A stretch of 37,267 bases of DNA from Ferrovibrio sp. GTDB taxonomy: Bacteria; Pseudomonadota; Alphaproteobacteria; Ferrovibrionales; Ferrovibrionaceae. Below, piece by piece: positions 1-17,525 of this stretch. Position numbers and translations under genes: made by a program. Where the stretch lies: the NCBI RefSeq assembly GCF_029255545.1, contig NZ_JANLJJ010000040.1:12623-49889 (forward strand), given 5' to 3'. Position 1 is the stretch's first letter; each line of letters starts with the position of its first letter. A model generated the notes under the pieces. That model had not been told where the DNA came from. It was given only the letters and a program-made list of their open reading frames with translations, and did no database searches.

Positions 1-60
1 GCCATGCTGATCGGCGTGGCGGCGCTGGTGACCTATTTCTTCAGTGCGATGGGGCACTAA
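1..60 (+). CDS. nuoL: NADH-quinone oxidoreductase subunit L, C-terminal end (partial)
   Basis: The first 60 bases read in frame as the end of a hydrophobic protein ([19 protein letters not shown]) and stop at TAA 58-60. Only this tail is inside the window. A final membrane helix directly before nuoM fits NuoL, the antiporter-like proton-pumping subunit of complex I, and nuoL-nuoM-nuoN is the usual order. The identification rests on position and hydrophobicity, since no diagnostic motif lies in these 19 residues. Confidence 0.75.
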
Positions 61-64
61 TCCG

Positions 65-1579
65 ATGTCGAGCATGCCCTTGCTGTCCATCGTCACCTTC
101 CTGCCGCTGGCCGGCGCCGCCTTCATCTTTCTGGCCCGCGGCCCGGAAGAAATCGTCGCCCGCAATGCCCGCGCGGTCGCGCTCTGGACCACGGCGATCA
201 CCTTCGCGGTGTCGCTGCTGATCTGGCTGAATTTCGATAATTCGACCGCCGCCTTCCAGTTCGTCGAGAAGACCGCCTGGGTTGGCGCCGGCATCAATTA
301 CCACATGGGCGTCGATGGCATCTCCATGCTGTTCGTCATCCTCACCACCTTCCTGATGCCGTTCTGCATCCTAGCCTCGTGGGAGGCCGTCGAGCACCGC
401 GTCAAGGAATACATGATCGCCTTCCTGGTCATGGAAACCCTGATGATCGGCGTGTTCTGCGCGCTGGACCTGGTGCTGTTCTACCTGTTCTTCGAAGCCG
501 GCCTGATCCCGATGTTCCTGATCATCGGCATCTGGGGCGGCAAACGCCGCATCTATGCCAGTTTCAAGTTCTTCCTCTACACGCTGCTCGGCTCGGTGCT
601 GATGCTGCTGGCAATCCTCTACATGTACTTCGTGGCCGGCACGACCGATATTCCGAGCCTGATGAAGACCGGGCTGTTCACGGGCCAGGCGCAGACCTGG
701 CTGTGGCTTGCCTTCTTCGCCTCGTTTGCCGTGAAGATGCCGATGTGGCCGGTGCATACCTGGCTGCCGGATGCCCACGTAGAGGCGCCGACCGCTGGTT
801 CGGTCATCCTGGCAGCCGTGCTGCTGAAGATGGGCGGCTACGGCTTCCTGCGCTTCTCGCTGCCGATGTTCCCGCTGGCCAGCGAGTATTTCGCGCCCTT
901 CGTCTTCGCGCTCTCGGTCATCGCCATCGTCTATGCCTCGCTGGTGGCGCTGGTGCAGGAAGACATGAAGAAGCTGATCGCCTATTCCTCGGTGGCCCAT
1001 ATGGGCTTCGTCACCATGGGCATCTTCACCTTCAATACCCAGGGCCTTGAGGGCGCCATCTTCCAGATGCTCAGCCACGGCATCGTGTCTGGCGCGCTGT
1101 TCCTCTGCGTCGGCGTGGTCTATGACCGTCTGCATACTCGCGAGATCGCGCGTTATGGCGGCCTAGTCAACATCATGCCGAAATACGCCTTTGTCTTCAT
1201 GCTGTTCACCATGGCCAATGTCGGCCTGCCGGGCACCGGCGGTTTCGTCGGCGAATTGCTCACCCTGGTCGGCGCCTTCCAGGCCAACACCTGGGTCGCG
1301 CTGATCGCCACCTCTGGCGTGATCCTTGCCGCTGCCTATGCGCTGTGGCTGTATCGCCGCGTGGTGTTCGGCGAACTGACCAAGGCCGACCTGAAGAGCA
1401 TGCTCGACCTCAGCCCGCGCGAGGTTGCAATCTTCGCCCCGCTGGTGGTGATGACCCTGTGGATGGGCATCTATCCGGCGCCTTTCTTCGACGTGATCGC
1501 CGCGTCTGCCAGGCACCTGCTTGAGCAGCATCAGACCGCGCTTGCCGCCGCCAAGGCGGTGGCGACCGCCGCCCGTTAA
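65..1579 (+). CDS. nuoM: NADH-quinone oxidoreductase subunit M
   Basis: NuoM is an antiporter-like membrane subunit of respiratory complex I and helps drive proton translocation during NADH oxidation by quinone. The 504-residue product has about 14 predicted membrane helices. The key Glu lies in [10 protein letters not shown] (Glu144), followed by the conserved Lys in [16 protein letters not shown] (Lys224) and the [12 protein letters not shown] segment, all hallmarks of the family. The ATG at 65 follows the nuoL stop by 4 bases. An in-frame GTG at 44 would overlap nuoL and add seven atypical residues, so 65 is preferred; ATG 74 is also possible. nuoN follows after 22 bases, consistent with one nuo operon. 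Length is typical for the family. Confidence 0.96.
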
Positions 1580-1601
1580 GCGGAAGATAGGAGTTCGACC
1601 C

Positions 1602-3050
1602 GTGACCGCTTCGACCATGCCCGTCCTGGCGCCGGCCTATCCGGAAATCTGGCTTGCCCTGGCCTCGATGGCGCTGCTGATTTTTGGCGTCTTCCGTGGC
1701 GATGGGTCGACCCGCCTGGTGGCCTGGCTGGCCATCGTCGTGCTGGCCATTACCGTGCTGCTGGTCGTGCTGCAACCAGACGCCACCGAGACCACCTTCG
1801 GCGGGATGTTCATCGCCGACGGCTTCGGCCGCTTCGCCAAGATACTGATCCTGCTTGGCTCGGCGTTCTCGATCGTCCTGTCGCTCGGCTATATCCGTTA
1901 CGAGCGGATGGAGCGTTTCGAGTATCCCGTGCTGATCCTGCTGGCCAGCACCGGCATGCTGATGATGGTCTCGGCCAACGACCTGATCGCGCTCTATCTT
2001 GGCCTCGAGCTGCAGTCGCTGTCGCTCTATGTCATGGCCGCCTTCAAGCGCGATTCTGGCCGCGCCACCGAAGCCGGGCTCAAGTATTTCGTGCTCGGCG
2101 CGCTGTCGTCCGGCATGCTGCTTTATGGCTGCTCGATGATCTATGGCTTCGCCGGCTCGACCAGCTTTCCGCTGATTGCCCAGGCATTGACCGGCGGCGG
2201 CTCGGCTTCCATCGGCCTGGTGGTCGGCATCGTCTTCCTCTGCGCCGGCCTGGCCTTCAAGGTCTCTGCCGTGCCGTTCCATATGTGGACGCCCGACGTC
2301 TATGAAGGCTCGCCCACGCCGGTGACGGCCTTCTTCGCCGTGGCGCCCAAGGTGGCGGCCATGGCCCTGTTCGTGCGTGCGCTGCTCAGCCCGTTCGGCG
2401 AGATCGCCCATGACTGGCAGCAGATCGTCATCGTGATCAGCGCGCTCAGCATGCTGCTGGGCGCCTTTGCCGCCATCGCCCAGAGCAACATCAAGCGCCT
2501 GATGGCCTATTCCTCGATCGGCCATGTTGGTTATGCCCTGATCGGCCTGGCTGCCGGCACCGAGGAAGGCGTGCGCGGCATCCTGATCTATCTGGCGATC
2601 TATCTGGCCATGAATGTCGGCACCTTCGCCATCATCCTGTCCATGCGCCAGAAGGACCGCATGGTTGAGGGCGTGCAGGATCTCGCCGGCCTGGCCAAGA
2701 CCCATCCGGGCATGGCGCTGCTGCTGGCCGCCTTCATGTTCTCGCTGGCAGGCGTGCCGCCGCTGGCCGGCTTCTTCGGCAAGTTCTACATCTTCATGGC
2801 CGCCATCAACGCCCAGCTTTATGTGCTGGCGGTGCTGGGCGTGCTCAGCTCGGTGGTCGGCGCCTATTACTATCTGCGCGTCGTCAAGCTGATGTATTTC
2901 GACGAGGCGGCCGAGCCGCTGGCCAAGCCGGTGCGCGGCGAACTGGGCGCGGTGATGACCGTCACCGGCCTGTTCACCATCCTGTTCTTCGTCATGCCAG
3001 GCCCGCTGCTGGCGGCGGCGCAGACCGCCGCCAAGTCGCTGTTTCCCTGA
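1602..3050 (+). CDS. nuoN: NADH-quinone oxidoreductase subunit N
   Basis: NuoN is the third antiporter-like subunit of complex I. The 482-residue product has many membrane helices. It carries the family motif around [18 protein letters not shown], the core segment [20 protein letters not shown], and the later segment [18 protein letters not shown]. The GTG start at 1602 is chosen because AGGAG at 1589-1593 sits 8 bases upstream. ATG 1617 is an alternative, and longer in-frame starts would run back into nuoM. The gene closes the nuo operon here, with birA following directly. Confidence 0.95.
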
Positions 3051-3080
3051 TTGCAGCCGTTTGATCGCCTGGACACCCAA

Positions 3081-3830
3081 GTGAAGTGGGATCTCCAGGC
3101 GTTCGACGTCCTCGACAGCACCAACGAGGAAATCCGCCGTCGGGCCGAAACCGGCGTGGCGGAGGGCCTTGCGGTGCTGGCTCGGCAGCAGACCGCCGGT
3201 CGTGGCCGCCGTGGCCGCGCCTGGGAATCGCCGGTTGGCAATCTCTACCTCTCGCTGCTGCTGCGCCCCCAGCTGGGCGGAAAGCCGGCGAGCCCGGCGC
3301 AGGCGGCCACGCTGTCGTTCCTCACCGTCGTCGCGCTGGCCGAGGCGGTGGAACTGGCCGCGCCGCAACTTGGGCCCGCCATCACCTGCAAATGGCCGAA
3401 CGACCTGCTGGTCGGCGGCGCCAAGATCGCCGGCATCCTGCTGGAATCACGGACCCGGCCAGACGGCAATCTTGACTGGGTGACGGTTGGCATTGGCGTC
3501 AATCTGGCGCATTACCCCGAGCAGACCCCGTATCCAGCCACGGCTTTGGCCGCTCATGGCGTCAGCGTTGCGCCCGAGGATTTCGCGCCCTGGCTGCTGG
3601 CCCGCTATGGCTACTGGTATGGCCGCTGGCAGGCCGGGGGGTTCGCGCCTGTGCGCGAGGCCTGGCTGAAGAAGGCCCAGGGGCTGGGCAAGCCGGTGGT
3701 CGTGCGATTGCCGGATCGTGAGCTGCACGGCCGTTTCGCCGCGCTGGATGACAGCGGCGCGTTGTTGCTGGAAATGCCGGACGGCCGCATGCAGACTGTG
3801 ACCGCCGGCGACGTGTTCCCGGCCGGCTGA
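3081..3830 (+). CDS. birA: Biotin--[acetyl-CoA-carboxylase] ligase
   Basis: This enzyme activates biotin with ATP and attaches it to the carboxyl carrier protein of acetyl-CoA carboxylase and related enzymes in the cytoplasm. The product has the ligase core only: DSTNEE near the start, the biotinyl-AMP loop GRGRRGR (residues 40-46), KWPND (from Lys104) followed by GGAKIAGILLES, and a small C-terminal SH3-like domain. There is no N-terminal DNA-binding domain, so it is a monofunctional ligase without the repressor role of E. coli BirA. The start is uncertain. GTG 3081 gives 249 residues; TTG 3051, directly after the nuoN stop, gives 259. Neither has a clear ribosome binding site. birA downstream of nuoN is common in alphaproteobacteria. 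Confidence 0.93.
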   Translation: MKWDLQAFDVLDSTNEEIRRRAETGVAEGLAVLARQQTAGRGRRGRAWESPVGNLYLSLLLRPQLGGKPASPAQAATLSFLTVVALAEAVELAAPQLGPAITCKWPNDLLVGGAKIAGILLESRTRPDGNLDWVTVGIGVNLAHYPEQTPYPATALAAHGVSVAPEDFAPWLLARYGYWYGRWQAGGFAPVREAWLKKAQGLGKPVVVRLPDRELHGRFAALDDSGALLLEMPDGRMQTVTAGDVFPAG

Positions 3831-13010: not shown

Positions 13011-13685
13011 ATGAAGAGAGCTGGAGTGCGGTTTACGCTATTATGCGTGATGGCTTTGGGCCTTGCGGCCTGCGTCAACAGTGTCAGAACCGATGTCAGT
13101 CGTTTCACCACCACGTTGCCCAGCGATCTCGGCGGCAAGACTTTTGCCTTCGTCGAACTCGACAGCCAGCGCGGCAGCGCCGAATACGCCCAGCATGCCG
13201 CCGCCATCGCCGGCCATCTGGAACGCCAGGGCCTGACGCGCACCACCGACCTGCGCAGGGCCGATTACGCCGTCAGTTTCATCTACGGCCAGTCCTCGGG
13301 CCAGACCAAGAGCGAGACGTTCCCGGTCTGGGGCCAGACCGGCGGCGGCACCAGCTACAGCAGCGGCACGGTGAATGCCTATGGGGCGGGCGGCAGCGGC
13401 TTTGGCAACTACTCGTCCACCACCTATACGCCGCCAACCTATGGCGTGGTTGGCAGCCAGACGATCAGCAGCACGGAATACACGCGCTACATCAACATCC
13501 AGATCTATGACTGGCAGGCCTCGGTGAAGACCGACAAACTGACCGGCCTGTGGGAAGCCAATGCCACCAGCACCGGCTCCTCCAGCAGCTTTGCCGCCGT
13601 GTCGGGCTGCATGATCCAGGCGATTTTCCAGGATTTCCGCAAATCCGGCAGCGAGAAGATCACCCTGCCGACGCAGACCTGCTAG
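13011..13685 (+). CDS. DUF4136-like lipoprotein
   Basis: A 224-residue predicted lipoprotein. Residues 1-20 are a signal peptide and the lipobox LAAC places the lipidated Cys at 21. The following region (TLPSDLGGKTFAFVELDSQRG, then EYAQHAAAIAGHLERQGL and RRADYAVSFIYG) and the tail (INIQIYDWQ, LWEANATSTG, MIQAIFQDF) match the general pattern of DUF4136 proteins, whose function is not established. Residues about 108-160 form a Gly/Ser/Thr/Tyr-rich low-complexity stretch inside this pattern. AGGGGA at 12999-13004 lies 6 bases before the ATG. It stands alone on the + strand, with a long intergenic region after it. Confidence 0.8.
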   Translation: MKRAGVRFTLLCVMALGLAACVNSVRTDVSRFTTTLPSDLGGKTFAFVELDSQRGSAEYAQHAAAIAGHLERQGLTRTTDLRRADYAVSFIYGQSSGQTKSETFPVWGQTGGGTSYSSGTVNAYGAGGSGFGNYSSTTYTPPTYGVVGSQTISSTEYTRYINIQIYDWQASVKTDKLTGLWEANATSTGSSSSFAAVSGCMIQAIFQDFRKSGSEKITLPTQTC

Positions 13686-13719
13686 GGCCCCCCCATTACC
13701 GGTGGGCTCGGGATTTTTG

Positions 13720-13766
13720 TCGGCAAAGCCGCCGGAACGGGAGCAATATCGGCAAATCCGACGGAA
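13720..13766 (+). repeat. 18-bp imperfect direct repeat, 29-bp period
   Basis: TCGGCAAAGCCGCCGGAA (13720-13737) and TCGGCAAATCCGACGGAA (13749-13766) match at 16 of 18 positions. They lie just after the lipoprotein gene and at the upstream end of the dnaE intergenic region. Function unknown. Confidence 0.75.
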
Positions 13767-13780
13767 AACATGCCAAATGA

Positions 13781-13803
13781 TATCAACGATATCAGTGCTA
13801 TCA
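13781..13803 (+). repeat. Three TATCA motifs at exact 9-bp spacing
   Basis: TATCA begins at 13781, 13790 and 13799; the first two sit within GATATC palindromes (13779-13784, 13788-13793). ATGATA (13777-13782) and TATCAT (13799-13804) form an inverted pair around the array. The spacing is close to one DNA turn, as seen in small iteron or operator arrays. This is an observation only. Confidence 0.6.
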
Positions 13804-13881
13804 TTCCTGCGCCGGCTGCTGTGGAATACCAAATCTGCCTTACCAGGATTAGATCTTTCCGGTTCGTTCGCCTAGGACTTG

Positions 13882-14043
13882 GATTCGTCCGCAGCCGTTC
13901 TCCGGGTTACCTCGACGTTCCGGCACTTATCCACAAGATATTGGGAATCAACACGAATCCGCCATACTTCGCGTGGGATTCGGATTCCTTGCGTTCTGGT
14001 TTCCGGCGCCTAGGTCGCGTATCGTAAAACGCGAACGGGAATC
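13882..14043. promoter_or_regulatory. Cluster of six GANTC (CcrM-type methylation) sites
   Basis: GATTC or GAATC occurs at 13882-13886, 13945-13949, 13955-13959, 13977-13981, 13983-13987 and 14039-14043. GANTC is the target of the cell-cycle methyltransferase CcrM in alphaproteobacteria, and such sites cluster in promoters controlled by CcrM and GcrA. Scanning the first 3.5 kb of the window by eye, I found only three, so six in 162 bp is a marked enrichment. Whether this organism has CcrM cannot be seen from the window. Confidence 0.6.
13927..13935 (+). promoter_or_regulatory. Consensus DnaA box (TTATCCACA)
   Basis: A perfect match to the strongest DnaA-binding nonamer, 120 bases before the dnaE start and inside the GANTC cluster. 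Only one clear box is present, so an origin is unlikely; DnaA-dependent control of dnaE transcription is a possible role. A given 9-mer is expected by chance about once in 100 kb or more when both strands are counted, so coincidence cannot be excluded. Confidence 0.45.
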
Positions 14044-14054
14044 GAAAATCCGCC

Positions 14055-17000
14055 ATGAGCTTTGCCGACTTCGTCCATCTGCGCGTCCATACCGCCTATT
14101 CGCTCACCGAAGGGGCGATCAGGCTGCCCAAACTGGCTGAGCTGTGCGTCAAGCTGCGCATGCCGGCGGTTGCGATCACCGATACCAACAACCTGTTCGG
14201 CGCGCTGGAAGGCTCCAAGGAACTGGCCGGCAAGGGCATCCAGCCGATCATCGGCTGCCAGATCAGCCTGAGCCGCGCCGACCAGGCCCAGGGCGGCTTT
14301 GGCAAGGCGCTGAAAAAGCCCGATCCGGACCGCATCGTGCTGCTGGCCCAGAATGCCGCCGGCTATGCCAACCTGATGCAGCTTTCCACCAAGGCCTATC
14401 TGGAGTCGCCGCCGGGCGAGGCGGCGCAGGTCGGCTGGGCCGATCTGGAAGCATACAGCGCCGGCCTGATCTGCCTGAGCGGCGGCCCAAGCGGCCCGGT
14501 CACGCGGCTCTTGTCGGAAGGCCAGAACGATGCGGCGCGCCAGCAGCTCGAGACGCTGAAGCGCATCTTTCCCGGCCGGCTTTATGTCGAGTTGCAGCGC
14601 CATGGCTGGGCCATCGAGGCCAAGACTGAGCCGGGGCTGCTGGAACTGGCCTATGCGCTTGACCTGCCGCTGGTGGCCACCAACGACTGCTATTTTCCCG
14701 ACGAGAGCATGTACGAGGCGCATGACGCGCTGCTCTGCATCGCCGAGGGCACCTATGTGGGCGAGCAGAACCGCCGCCGCGTCACCCCCGATCACCGCTT
14801 CAAGTCGGCCGAGGAAATGCGCGTGCTGTTCGCCGATCTGCCCGAGGCGGTCGACAACACGCTGGTGATCGCGAAGCGCTGCGCGATCAAGGCCGAGGAG
14901 CGCAAGCCGATCCTGCCCAGTTTCGGCGACGGGAAAGGGGAGTCGGAAGCCGATACCCTGCGCCGCATGGCGCGTGAAGGCCTGGAAACGCGCCTAGCCC
15001 AGATCGGCGTGAGCGGCGAAGCCGCCAAAGCCTATTACGACCGTCTCGAATTCGAATGCGAGACGATCATCAACATGAAATTCCCCGGCTACTTCCTGAT
15101 CGTGGCCGATTTCATCCAGTGGGCCAAGCGCAATGGCGTGGCGGTCGGGCCGGGTCGCGGTTCGGGCGCCGGTTCGGTGGTCGCCTGGGCGCTTACCATC
15201 ACCGATCTGGATCCGCTGCGCTTCGGTCTGCTGTTCGAACGCTTCCTCAATCCGGAACGCGTATCGATGCCCGACTTCGATATCGACTTCTGCCAGGAGC
15301 GCCGCGAAAAGGTGATCGACTACGTGCAGCAGAAATATGGCGCTGCCAACGTTGCCCAGATCATCACCTTCGGCAAGCTGCAGGCCCGCGCAGCCCTGCG
15401 CGACGTTGGCCGCGTGCTGCAACTGCCTCTCGGCCAGGTCGACCGCATCTGCAAGCTGGTGCCAAATAATCCCGCCAATCCGGTAACCCTGGCCCAGGCG
15501 ATCAAGGAAGAGGTGCGCCTGCGCGAGGAGCGCGACCGCGACGAAGCGGTCGGCCGCATGATGGATATCGCGCTGAAGCTGGAAGGACTGTACCGCAACG
15601 CCTCGACCCATGCCGCCGGCGTGGTGATCGGCGACCGGCCGCTGGTCGAGCTGGTGCCGCTGTACCGCGATCCGCATGCCAGCATGCCGGCCACGCAGTT
15701 CTCGATGAAATACGCCGAGGCCGCCGGGCTGGTGAAATTCGACTTCCTCGGCCTCAAGACGCTCGACGTGCTGGAGAAGGCCGTCGAGTTGATCCGCCGG
15801 AAGGGCGTGCAGATCGATCTGGCCGGCATCCCGCTGGCCGACCAGCCTACCTTCGAGCTTTTGGGACGCGGTGACACGGTGGGCGTGTTCCAGCTCGAAA
15901 GTTCGGGCATGCGCGACATGCTGCGCAACATGAAGCCCGACGCCTTCGAGGATATCATCGCCCTGGTCGCGCTCTATCGCCCGGGCCCGATGGAGAATAT
16001 CCCGAGCTATATCGCCCGCAAGCACGGCAAGGAAAAGCCCGATTACCTGCATGACTGGCTCAAGCCGGTGCTGGAGGAAACCTACGGCGTCATCATCTAC
16101 CAGGAACAGGTGATGGAAATCGCCAAGGTGCTGGCCGGCTATTCGCTCGGCGAGGCCGACCTGCTGCGCCGCGCCATGGGCAAGAAGATCAAGGCCGAGA
16201 TGGATGCGCAGAAGGAGCGCTTCGTCACTGGCGCGAAGGAGAAGGGCGTCGATCCGGACCGCGCCGCCTTCATCTTCGAGCTGGTGGAGAAATTCGCCGG
16301 CTACGGCTTCAACAAGAGTCACGCCGCGGCATACGCGCTGGTCGCCTGGCAGACCGCCTACCTGAAGGCCAATTATCCGGTCGAGTTCATCGCCGCCTCG
16401 ATGACGCTGGATATTTCCAACACCGACAAGCTGAACGTGTTCCGCCAGGAATGCGCCCGCCAGGCCATTACCCTGCTGCCGCCGGACGTAAACCGTTCCG
16501 AGGTCGAGTTCGCGGTGGAATACGACAAGGCCGAGAAGGGCGCGATCCGCTACGGGCTGGCCGCAGTGCGCAATGTCGGCGCTGCGCCGATGGGCCAGAT
16601 CGTCGAGACGCGGCAGGCCGGCGGCCCCTTCAAATCGCTGTTTGATTTTGCCGGAAGGGTTGATCCATCGGCGCTGAACAAGCGCATGCTGGAAAACATC
16701 GCCAAGGCCGGCGCGTTTGACGGGCTGGAGAAAAGCCGCGCGAAAGTGCTGGCCGGACTGGAAACCCTGATCCGCTATGCCAACGCCAAGGCCGAGGAGC
16801 GCGCCTCCAACCAGGTATCCCTGTTCGGTGGCGGCAAGACGGAAGAAAGCCTGCCCAAGCTGCCCGAAGGCGAGGTCTGGACGCCGATGGAACAGCTTGC
16901 CAGGGAATTCGAGGCGATCGGCTTCTACCTTTCGGCCCATCCGCTCGATGCCTATCAGGTCACGCTCAATCGCGTTGGCGTGAAGCGTTATGCCGACATG

Positions 17001-17525
17001 CTCAAGCTGCTGCATTCCGGCGACCAGGTGTTCAAGGTGGCCGGCACGGTGATCTCGAAACAGGAGCGCACCTCGCAGAAGACCGGCAACCGCTTCGCGT
17101 TTGTCCAGTGTTCTGATGCGTCTGGCATGTTCGAGGTGATGCTGTTCTCGGAGGTGCTGGCGCAGTATCGCGACCTGCTGGAAGCCGGCGCGAATATCGT
17201 CTGGACGCTCACCGCGCGCGCCGATGGCGAGCAGCCGCGCTTAAGCGCCCAGAAAGCCGAGAAGCTGGACGACGTGGCGGCCCGCGCCGCCGCCGGCATC
17301 CGCATCATGGTTGAGAACGACAGGCCCTTCGCCCAGATCAAAGGCCTGCTCGACAAGGCCGGGCGCGGCAAGGGCCAGGTATTGCTGGGCCTGAAACTGG
17401 AAGAGGCCGGCCTGTCGGGCGGCGTGGAGGCCGATATCAAGCTGCCCAGCGGCTATGCCATCAACCCGACCATCCGTCACCAGATCCGCGTGCTGCCGGG
17501 CGTGGTGGAGGTTTATGATATTTGA
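14055..17525 (+). CDS. dnaE: DNA polymerase III subunit alpha
   Basis: DnaE is the catalytic subunit of the replicative DNA polymerase. The 1156-residue protein has an N-terminal PHP domain (FVHLRVHTAYSLTEG, AITDTNNLFGA), the polymerase palm with PDFDIDF at residues 406-412 supplying Asp407 and Asp409, and the third catalytic Asp at 563 in KFDFLGLKTL. GRGSGAGS, YQEQVMEIA, GYGFNKSHAAAYA and a C-terminal OB-fold region (VAGTVISKQERTSQKTGNRFAFVQ) complete the family pattern. An in-frame TAA at 14025-14027 rules out a longer start. No good Shine-Dalgarno precedes ATG 14055. It is the DnaE1 type used for chromosome replication, and pepN follows after 9 bases. Confidence 0.96.
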   Translation: MSFADFVHLRVHTAYSLTEGAIRLPKLAELCVKLRMPAVAITDTNNLFGALEGSKELAGKGIQPIIGCQISLSRADQAQGGFGKALKKPDPDRIVLLAQNAAGYANLMQLSTKAYLESPPGEAAQVGWADLEAYSAGLICLSGGPSGPVTRLLSEGQNDAARQQLETLKRIFPGRLYVELQRHGWAIEAKTEPGLLELAYALDLPLVATNDCYFPDESMYEAHDALLCIAEGTYVGEQNRRRVTPDHRFKSAEEMRVLFADLPEAVDNTLVIAKRCAIKAEERKPILPSFGDGKGESEADTLRRMAREGLETRLAQIGVSGEAAKAYYDRLEFECETIINMKFPGYFLIVADFIQWAKRNGVAVGPGRGSGAGSVVAWALTITDLDPLRFGLLFERFLNPERVSMPDFDIDFCQERREKVIDYVQQKYGAANVAQIITFGKLQARAALRDVGRVLQLPLGQVDRICKLVPNNPANPVTLAQAIKEEVRLREERDRDEAVGRMMDIALKLEGLYRNASTHAAGVVIGDRPLVELVPLYRDPHASMPATQFSMKYAEAAGLVKFDFLGLKTLDVLEKAVELIRRKGVQIDLAGIPLADQPTFELLGRGDTVGVFQLESSGMRDMLRNMKPDAFEDIIALVALYRPGPMENIPSYIARKHGKEKPDYLHDWLKPVLEETYGVIIYQEQVMEIAKVLAGYSLGEADLLRRAMGKKIKAEMDAQKERFVTGAKEKGVDPDRAAFIFELVEKFAGYGFNKSHAAAYALVAWQTAYLKANYPVEFIAASMTLDISNTDKLNVFRQECARQAITLLPPDVNRSEVEFAVEYDKAEKGAIRYGLAAVRNVGAAPMGQIVETRQAGGPFKSLFDFAGRVDPSALNKRMLENIAKAGAFDGLEKSRAKVLAGLETLIRYANAKAEERASNQVSLFGGGKTEESLPKLPEGEVWTPMEQLAREFEAIGFYLSAHPLDAYQVTLNRVGVKRYADMLKLLHSGDQVFKVAGTVISKQERTSQKTGNRFAFVQCSDASGMFEVMLFSEVLAQYRDLLEAGANIVWTLTARADGEQPRLSAQKAEKLDDVAARAAAGIRIMVENDRPFAQIKGLLDKAGRGKGQVLLGLKLEEAGLSGGVEADIKLPSGYAINPTIRHQIRVLPGVVEVYDI

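Follow-up and report, generated by a model that had tools for sequence, protein, structure and literature searches.

The roughly 190 bp before dnaE in a Ferrovibrio genome probably form an S-phase promoter region under the control of CcrM and GcrA and of DnaA. A dense, conserved set of GANTC sites, together with a DnaA box, suggests that production of the replicative polymerase is tied to chromosome replication.

Layout and density of the GANTC sites before dnaE

The window (the whole stretch of DNA that was analysed, 37,267 nucleotides) carries dnaE, the gene for the 1156-aa alpha subunit of DNA polymerase III, on the forward strand at 14055..17525. This ORF matched NF004226 (1497 bits) and TIGR00594, confirming the identity that the initial annotation had given to the gene after the cluster. 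A gap of 369 bp separates dnaE from its upstream neighbor on the same strand, which encodes a DUF4136 protein (13011..13685; PF13590), and holds six GANTC sites, all within 162 bp, as had been counted. Listed without strand, these are core site 1 (GATTC, 13882..13886), just downstream of a distal putative promoter; GAATC at 13945..13949, 9 bp from the DnaA box; GAATC at 13955..13959, in an alignment column where the window's own genome (G000) alone has the site; core site 2 (GATTC, 13977..13981), just upstream of a proximal putative promoter; GATTC at 13983..13987, whose first base lies 6 bp beyond that of core site 2; and core site 3 (GAATC, 14039..14043), separated from the start codon of dnaE by 11 bp. 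The DnaA box lies among them at 13927..13935 on the forward strand, where the perfect box previously reported is indeed an exact match to the consensus TTATCCACA, followed by AGA.

We take the -10-like elements before dnaE to belong to sigma-73-type promoters, judging from the consensus for that class. The distal putative promoter, proposed from conservation, has its element CCTAGGAC at 13871..13878 on the forward strand (CCTAAATC in G003 and G009), and CCTAAATC, CCTAGGAC or a similar word precedes core site 1 in several genomes of the genus. The proximal putative promoter (13989..14016, forward strand) would consist of TTGCGTT at 13989-13995 and CCTAGGTC at 14009-14016, and all ten genomes of the genus have the word SCTAGG beginning 32 bp past the first base of core site 2. 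A scan for E. coli-type promoters called nothing at the proximal putative promoter, and no match to the CtrA motif TTAA-N7-TTAA with one mismatch or fewer was found in 13686-14060. Outside the conserved block, at 13777-13804, the words ATGATA and TATCAT make up a self-complementary, promoter-like pair on both strands, the sole call of the E. coli-type scan.

The cluster stands in a GANTC-poor window, with 61 sites vs. a shuffle mean of 154 (sd 11); the three sites counted earlier by eye in 1-3500 are at 2052, 3225, and 3444. For the genome as a whole we sampled 40 stretches, 724,211 bp or ~18% in total, taking a first 20 from contigs chosen for DnaA boxes and a second 20 by contig number; at 1.645 GANTC/kb, this sample resembles the window in its low rate. 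The cluster proved to be the densest in this ~18% sample, in keeping with the initial annotation, which had presented it as unusual: no second 162-bp stretch with six GANTC occurred in the 724 kb of this genome that were sampled, the densest other one having five (once), and four being found at 12 starting sites. When the sample plus the window was split by a rough codon-usage gene model, density was 1.46 GANTC/kb in coding DNA, 2.62 in intergenic DNA and 16.3 in the dnaE gap. Only two other of 360 intergenic segments (≥50 bp) held at least six GANTC, and these span 1336 and 3238 bp. At the intergenic rate, the Poisson probability of at least six GANTC in 162 bp is 6e-6, uncorrected for the choice of place.

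Conservation of the GANTC sites and the DnaA box

We aligned the dnaE upstream regions of ten genomes of the genus (own included) and of G010, from another genus of the same family. The pairs G003/G009 and G004/G008 are nearly identical here and each pair counts once, giving fewer independent cases than ten. A block of ~190 bp is conserved, and we assign it to dnaE because upstream of it the relatives show no clear alignment. All ten genus genomes have four to six GANTC in the block (6, 6, 6, 6, 6, 4, 4, 5, 5, and 6). Core sites 1 and 2 are present in 11/11 aligned genomes, with T or G as the middle base of site 1 and T throughout at site 2, whilst core site 3 is present in 9/11 (missing from G007 and G010) with A, C, or G. 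At core sites 1 and 3 the GA and TC are invariant and only the middle base changes, the pattern expected under selection on a CcrM site, and what is constrained in the block seems to be recognition by CcrM. The non-core sites are clade-specific, turning over while the total number is held; the site at 13983 is shared by five of the ten genus genomes and G010. When 12 palindromic five-letter words were counted in the blocks of the ten genomes, GANTC occurred 54 times and the runner-up 12 times.

In G010, the 200 bp before dnaE hold seven GANTC and the 400 bp before it 11. This region (L018) contains a module, CGTTCGCCYAAATCGNGGATTCGGACTCTCT, in two near-copies with two GANTC each, and three further GANTC at 9-bp spacing. 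Elsewhere in the family, the 400 bp before dnaE held no GANTC in G011 or G012 and two in G013, in a comparison that left out G015 (5 bp upstream), G014, G016, and G017.

The exact box TTATCCACA was found before dnaE in five of the ten genus genomes (G000, G001, G002, G005, and G006), the same five that share the site at 13945. This is set against GANTC sites kept in 10/10, and favors a reading in which the GANTC sites work through CcrM and GcrA while the DnaA box is incidental or titrates DnaA and does not regulate dnaE. The occurrence of the box elsewhere points the same way: the genome has it 21 times (11 for the reversed word), several of them within long ORFs. Such boxes do, however, recur at dnaE in distant lineages (5/96 loci, and 3/30 loci of the composite described below). 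Furthermore, G003, G004, G008, and G009 have an inverted two-mismatch word ~15 bp further on in the alignment which shares ten letters, TCCACAAGAT, with the exact box. These inverted words are weak evidence, as 22% of the shuffles of one such block also yield a DnaA word with two mismatches or fewer, and the G007 block has no DnaA box, exact or two-mismatch inverted. Taking both sides together, we think it rather unlikely that the box plays no regulatory part at dnaE. As for the earlier proposal that dnaE expression is tied to replication timing through both systems, its CcrM part is well supported at the level of sequence and its DnaA part moderately, with the box in half of the genus genomes.

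The GANTC words might instead belong to binding sites for a different regulator, LexA of the SOS response being one candidate (GTTC-N7-GTTC in Alphaproteobacteria). Overlap between LexA sites and GANTC comes easily, as passages of PMC7987155 warn, and both conserved GTTC/GAAC words in the block and two LexA-like words with one mismatch in 13686-14060 could be read in this way. An exact LexA box is, however, absent from the same interval. By eye, one near-match falls where the alignment is not conserved and the other has a further mismatch in the second clade, and the variation of the middle base at two core sites suits GANTC better than a longer fixed word. This makes another regulator's sites improbable, and a LexA promoter was rejected as a candidate, its exact box being absent and the two one-mismatch words unconserved by eye across the alignment.

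Chance, composition or shared ancestry would account for the cluster if AT-richer intergenic DNA carried GANTC words that had yet to diverge. Intergenic DNA does have 1.8-fold more GANTC than coding DNA, and close relatives share much of the block. We therefore compared the counts with a substitution null, in which the observed substitutions from G000 were placed at random positions. For the four near members of the genus the null expects 2.4–3.6 GANTC and six were observed (P 0.01–0.07), a weak test in which retention alone was not significant for three of the four (P 0.05–0.07; 0.01 for the fourth). In the five distant members, by contrast, the null expects 1.2–1.3 and 4, 4, 5, 5, and 6 were observed (P 0.024 to <0.0002). 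The sites singled out in the initial annotation are kept in relatives, above the substitution null in the distant ones. In addition, new GANTC stand elsewhere in the block, and words of the same make-up are rare. This explanation is already disfavored and we rate it as very improbable. It is hardly credible that the block serves chiefly as a structured mRNA leader or a riboswitch of dnaE: conservation does extend to the dnaE start codon, but Rfam matched nothing in 13600-14100 up to E 0.1, and no site resembling a terminator was found.

GANTC and DnaA boxes in other Alphaproteobacteria

In 79 other alphaproteobacterial dnaE upstream regions of 250 bp (the usable ones of 80, L049 being too short), four GANTC were found in one, three in seven, two in 11, one in 30, and none in 30. 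GANTC before dnaE is common in Alphaproteobacteria; a dense cluster is not. Across 96 loci outside the genus and G010 (100 minus four that were too short), the last 250 bp held 91 GANTC and the preceding 250 bp 38. Two control words of the same make-up rise near dnaE too, to a lesser degree (80 vs. 52 and 73 vs. 38), so part of the GANTC excess is due to composition. The exact DnaA box occurred in 5/96 of these regions (-250 to -1); the 285 windows taken further upstream at the same loci had none (0/96, 0/95, and 0/94).

The 21 exact boxes of the window's own genome have among their neighbors uvrC, an M23 peptidase gene, dnaE, gcrA, and dsbA (by dciA and smc). Four of these boxes run on into AAGA, namely those at dsbA-smc, dnaE, gcrA, and a site before an Mpo1-like gene; at least two GANTC lie within 60 bp of 4/4 of these vs. 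4/17 of the others, a grouping made post hoc. The M23 peptidase gene, which has a DUF5930 stretch, is preceded by two inverted exact boxes with starts 12 bp apart (C49, L172 13982-14002). In the genus, this promoter has the double exact box in 6/10 genomes, one box in 2/10 and none in 2/10. It was rejected as a further case, having four GANTC in the own genome and two or none in relatives.

At gcrA and dsbA-smc in the own genome, a GANTC stands 1 bp from the DnaA box. The gcrA box is exact in 7/7 genus genomes compared (of ten), with an abutting GANTC in six of the seven, and dsbA-smc has box and abutting GANTC in 10/10. Because the mechanical ORF of dsbA begins within the box in the own genome, its true start is probably downstream. 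Before gcrA in G007 (L196, G007:C15), six GANTC spaced 11, 11, 11, 11, and 9 bp apart make up a helically phased array, the last of them 1 bp from an exact DnaA box. Genome-wide, in the first sample plus the window, there was no clear GANTC excess at 10–12 bp.

This composite (pattern GAWTCYTGTGGATAA) gave 32 occurrences in 26 of 385 alphaproteobacterial genomes. Read backwards it gave none among the 385, and a scrambled control, with AGWCT for GANTC, gave four in three genomes. For 30 of the 32 sites the locus was examined: nine lie before uvrC, five before dsbA-smc, four before gcrA, and three before dnaE (G033, G197, and G368, from two families), making 21/30. The focal genus contributes seven of the 30, and outside it 14/23 are at these four genes. 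A neighbor scan of the remaining nine, which left out L312 and L315, placed one by a URO-D (hemE-like) gene and one by plasmid repA. The uvrC composites are from other genera (L313, L314, L317, L318, L326, L327, L328, L335, and L336); the focal genome's uvrC has two exact DnaA boxes upstream instead. The composite by the URO-D gene (L333, G128) lies between that gene and a kinase/pyrophosphorylase gene. In Caulobacter the origin adjoins hemE, and the L333 composite may mark an origin.

Tentatively, these loci could belong to a small DnaA-CcrM regulon shared among Alphaproteobacteria and recognizable by GANTC, 1 bp, and TGTGGATAA, in which DnaA would act according to local methylation and therefore to the passage of the fork. 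As targets it would have gcrA, uvrC, smc (via dsbA), and, in certain lineages, dnaE. The window's own dnaE falls outside the definition of the composite (GANTC 1 bp from TGTGGATAA), its nearest GANTC being 9 bp from the box, and would be a relaxed version with extra GANTC. Alternatively, the underlying signal could be a DnaA box in an extended form, TTATCCACARGA, with a tail that frequently completes a GANTC; such a box, if it ends in RGA, would account for some of the enrichment. Speaking against CcrM at the composite, G033 has no GcrA match, and its RAMA match is partial and below the cut-off.

Proposed regulation of dnaE and comparison with Caulobacter

The initial annotation had invoked CcrM and GcrA, and genes for both were found in the genome, along with a dnaA gene. 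The CcrM-type methyltransferase (L128 577-1809) has N6_N4_Mtase and RAMA domains and scores 634 bits on NF050803, under the 830-bit cut-off of that model of Caulobacter CcrM. RAMA was detected in 9/10 genus genomes, being absent from the 72%-complete G009, and GcrA (PF07750) in the own genome and 9/9 others. The extended GcrA motif YGAKTCK, described for Caulobacterales in passages of PMC7987155, fits none of the six dnaE sites and gives 0–3 matches per 250 bp in the dnaE upstream regions of relatives. Derived as it is from another order, this misfit lowers the chance that GcrA binds at dnaE and does not exclude it. Flanking the GANTC sites of the genus block, G stands before 41/55 and after 40/55.

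The position of dnaE on the chromosome comes from one sister genome, G006, which is a single contig, the own genome being in 116 contigs. GC skew in G006 flips at 1.38–1.42 and 3.40–3.44 Mb, and the landmarks are hemE at 1.307 Mb, parB at 1.338 Mb, and dnaE at 3.605 Mb. The distance between the origin and dnaE amounts to 92–97% of the half-chromosome, and ccrM and gcrA map to 1.747 and 0.024 Mb, respectively.

From these features of the sequence we infer the methylation, binding, and promoters of the dnaE region, as well as the direction and timing of its regulation. Under this preferred reading, in which CcrM/GcrA and DnaA both act, dnaE would probably be served by two sigma-73-type promoters with the DnaA box between them and GANTC at both. 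CcrM would methylate the GANTC sites, and GcrA with RNA polymerase would activate dnaE from the methylated sites once GcrA had accumulated. DnaA would add a direct input at replication start, and probably drives gcrA too in the genus, given that the gcrA promoter has a conserved box. With dnaE near the terminus, full methylation of its sites would persist for most of S phase and give way to hemimethylation only at fork arrival, which would allow polymerase synthesis while replication is under way and reduce it as replication ends.

If this is true, the dose of the replicative polymerase would be set, outside Caulobacterales, by the methylation clock that times Caulobacter division. The purpose of methylation marks at terminus-near promoters is called unclear in passages of PMC3667746, and a dnaE near the terminus would make it testable what they do at the last-replicated promoters. 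The GANTC-DnaA-box composite would provide a simple sequence handle for joint DnaA/CcrM promoters across Alphaproteobacteria.

The kind of control is already known, and the dnaE cluster is a well-supported candidate for a new, unusually dense and well-conserved example of it. According to passages of PMC3973325, Alphaproteobacteria with CcrM avoid GANTC overall and have an intergenic excess. Like the CcrM/GcrA promoters of Caulobacter (mipZ, podJ, and ctrA P1, among others), the dnaE region combines GANTC at a putative promoter of a cell-cycle gene with a genome encoding CcrM and GcrA. Several of the known Caulobacter promoters are also far from the origin, as described in parts of PMC3667746, and the GANTC-bearing Caulobacter probes given there have one to three sites, in contrast to the four to six of the dnaE block. 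Unlike in those promoters, the gene here is dnaE, the sites are mostly GGANTCG and not YGAKTCK, and the case is known from sequence; the nearest named relatives of this dnaE are at most 62% identical, and none belongs to Caulobacterales. For DnaA, passages of PMC8203912 and PMC3193534 assign gcrA, ftsZ, mipZ, and hdaA to the Caulobacter regulon, with predicted boxes at dnaQ and dnaB, which PMC8203912 lists as predicted DnaA targets. The boxes found here before a replisome gene and before gcrA resemble this regulon; those passages do not name dnaE as a target, and the box here sits among GANTC sites. The passages on dnaE in PMC2217572 concern a dnaE-ts mutant. The closest likeness in regulator and target class is the GcrA control of DNA polymerase III genes in Caulobacter reported in passages of PMC2877005, which give no architecture for a dnaE promoter.
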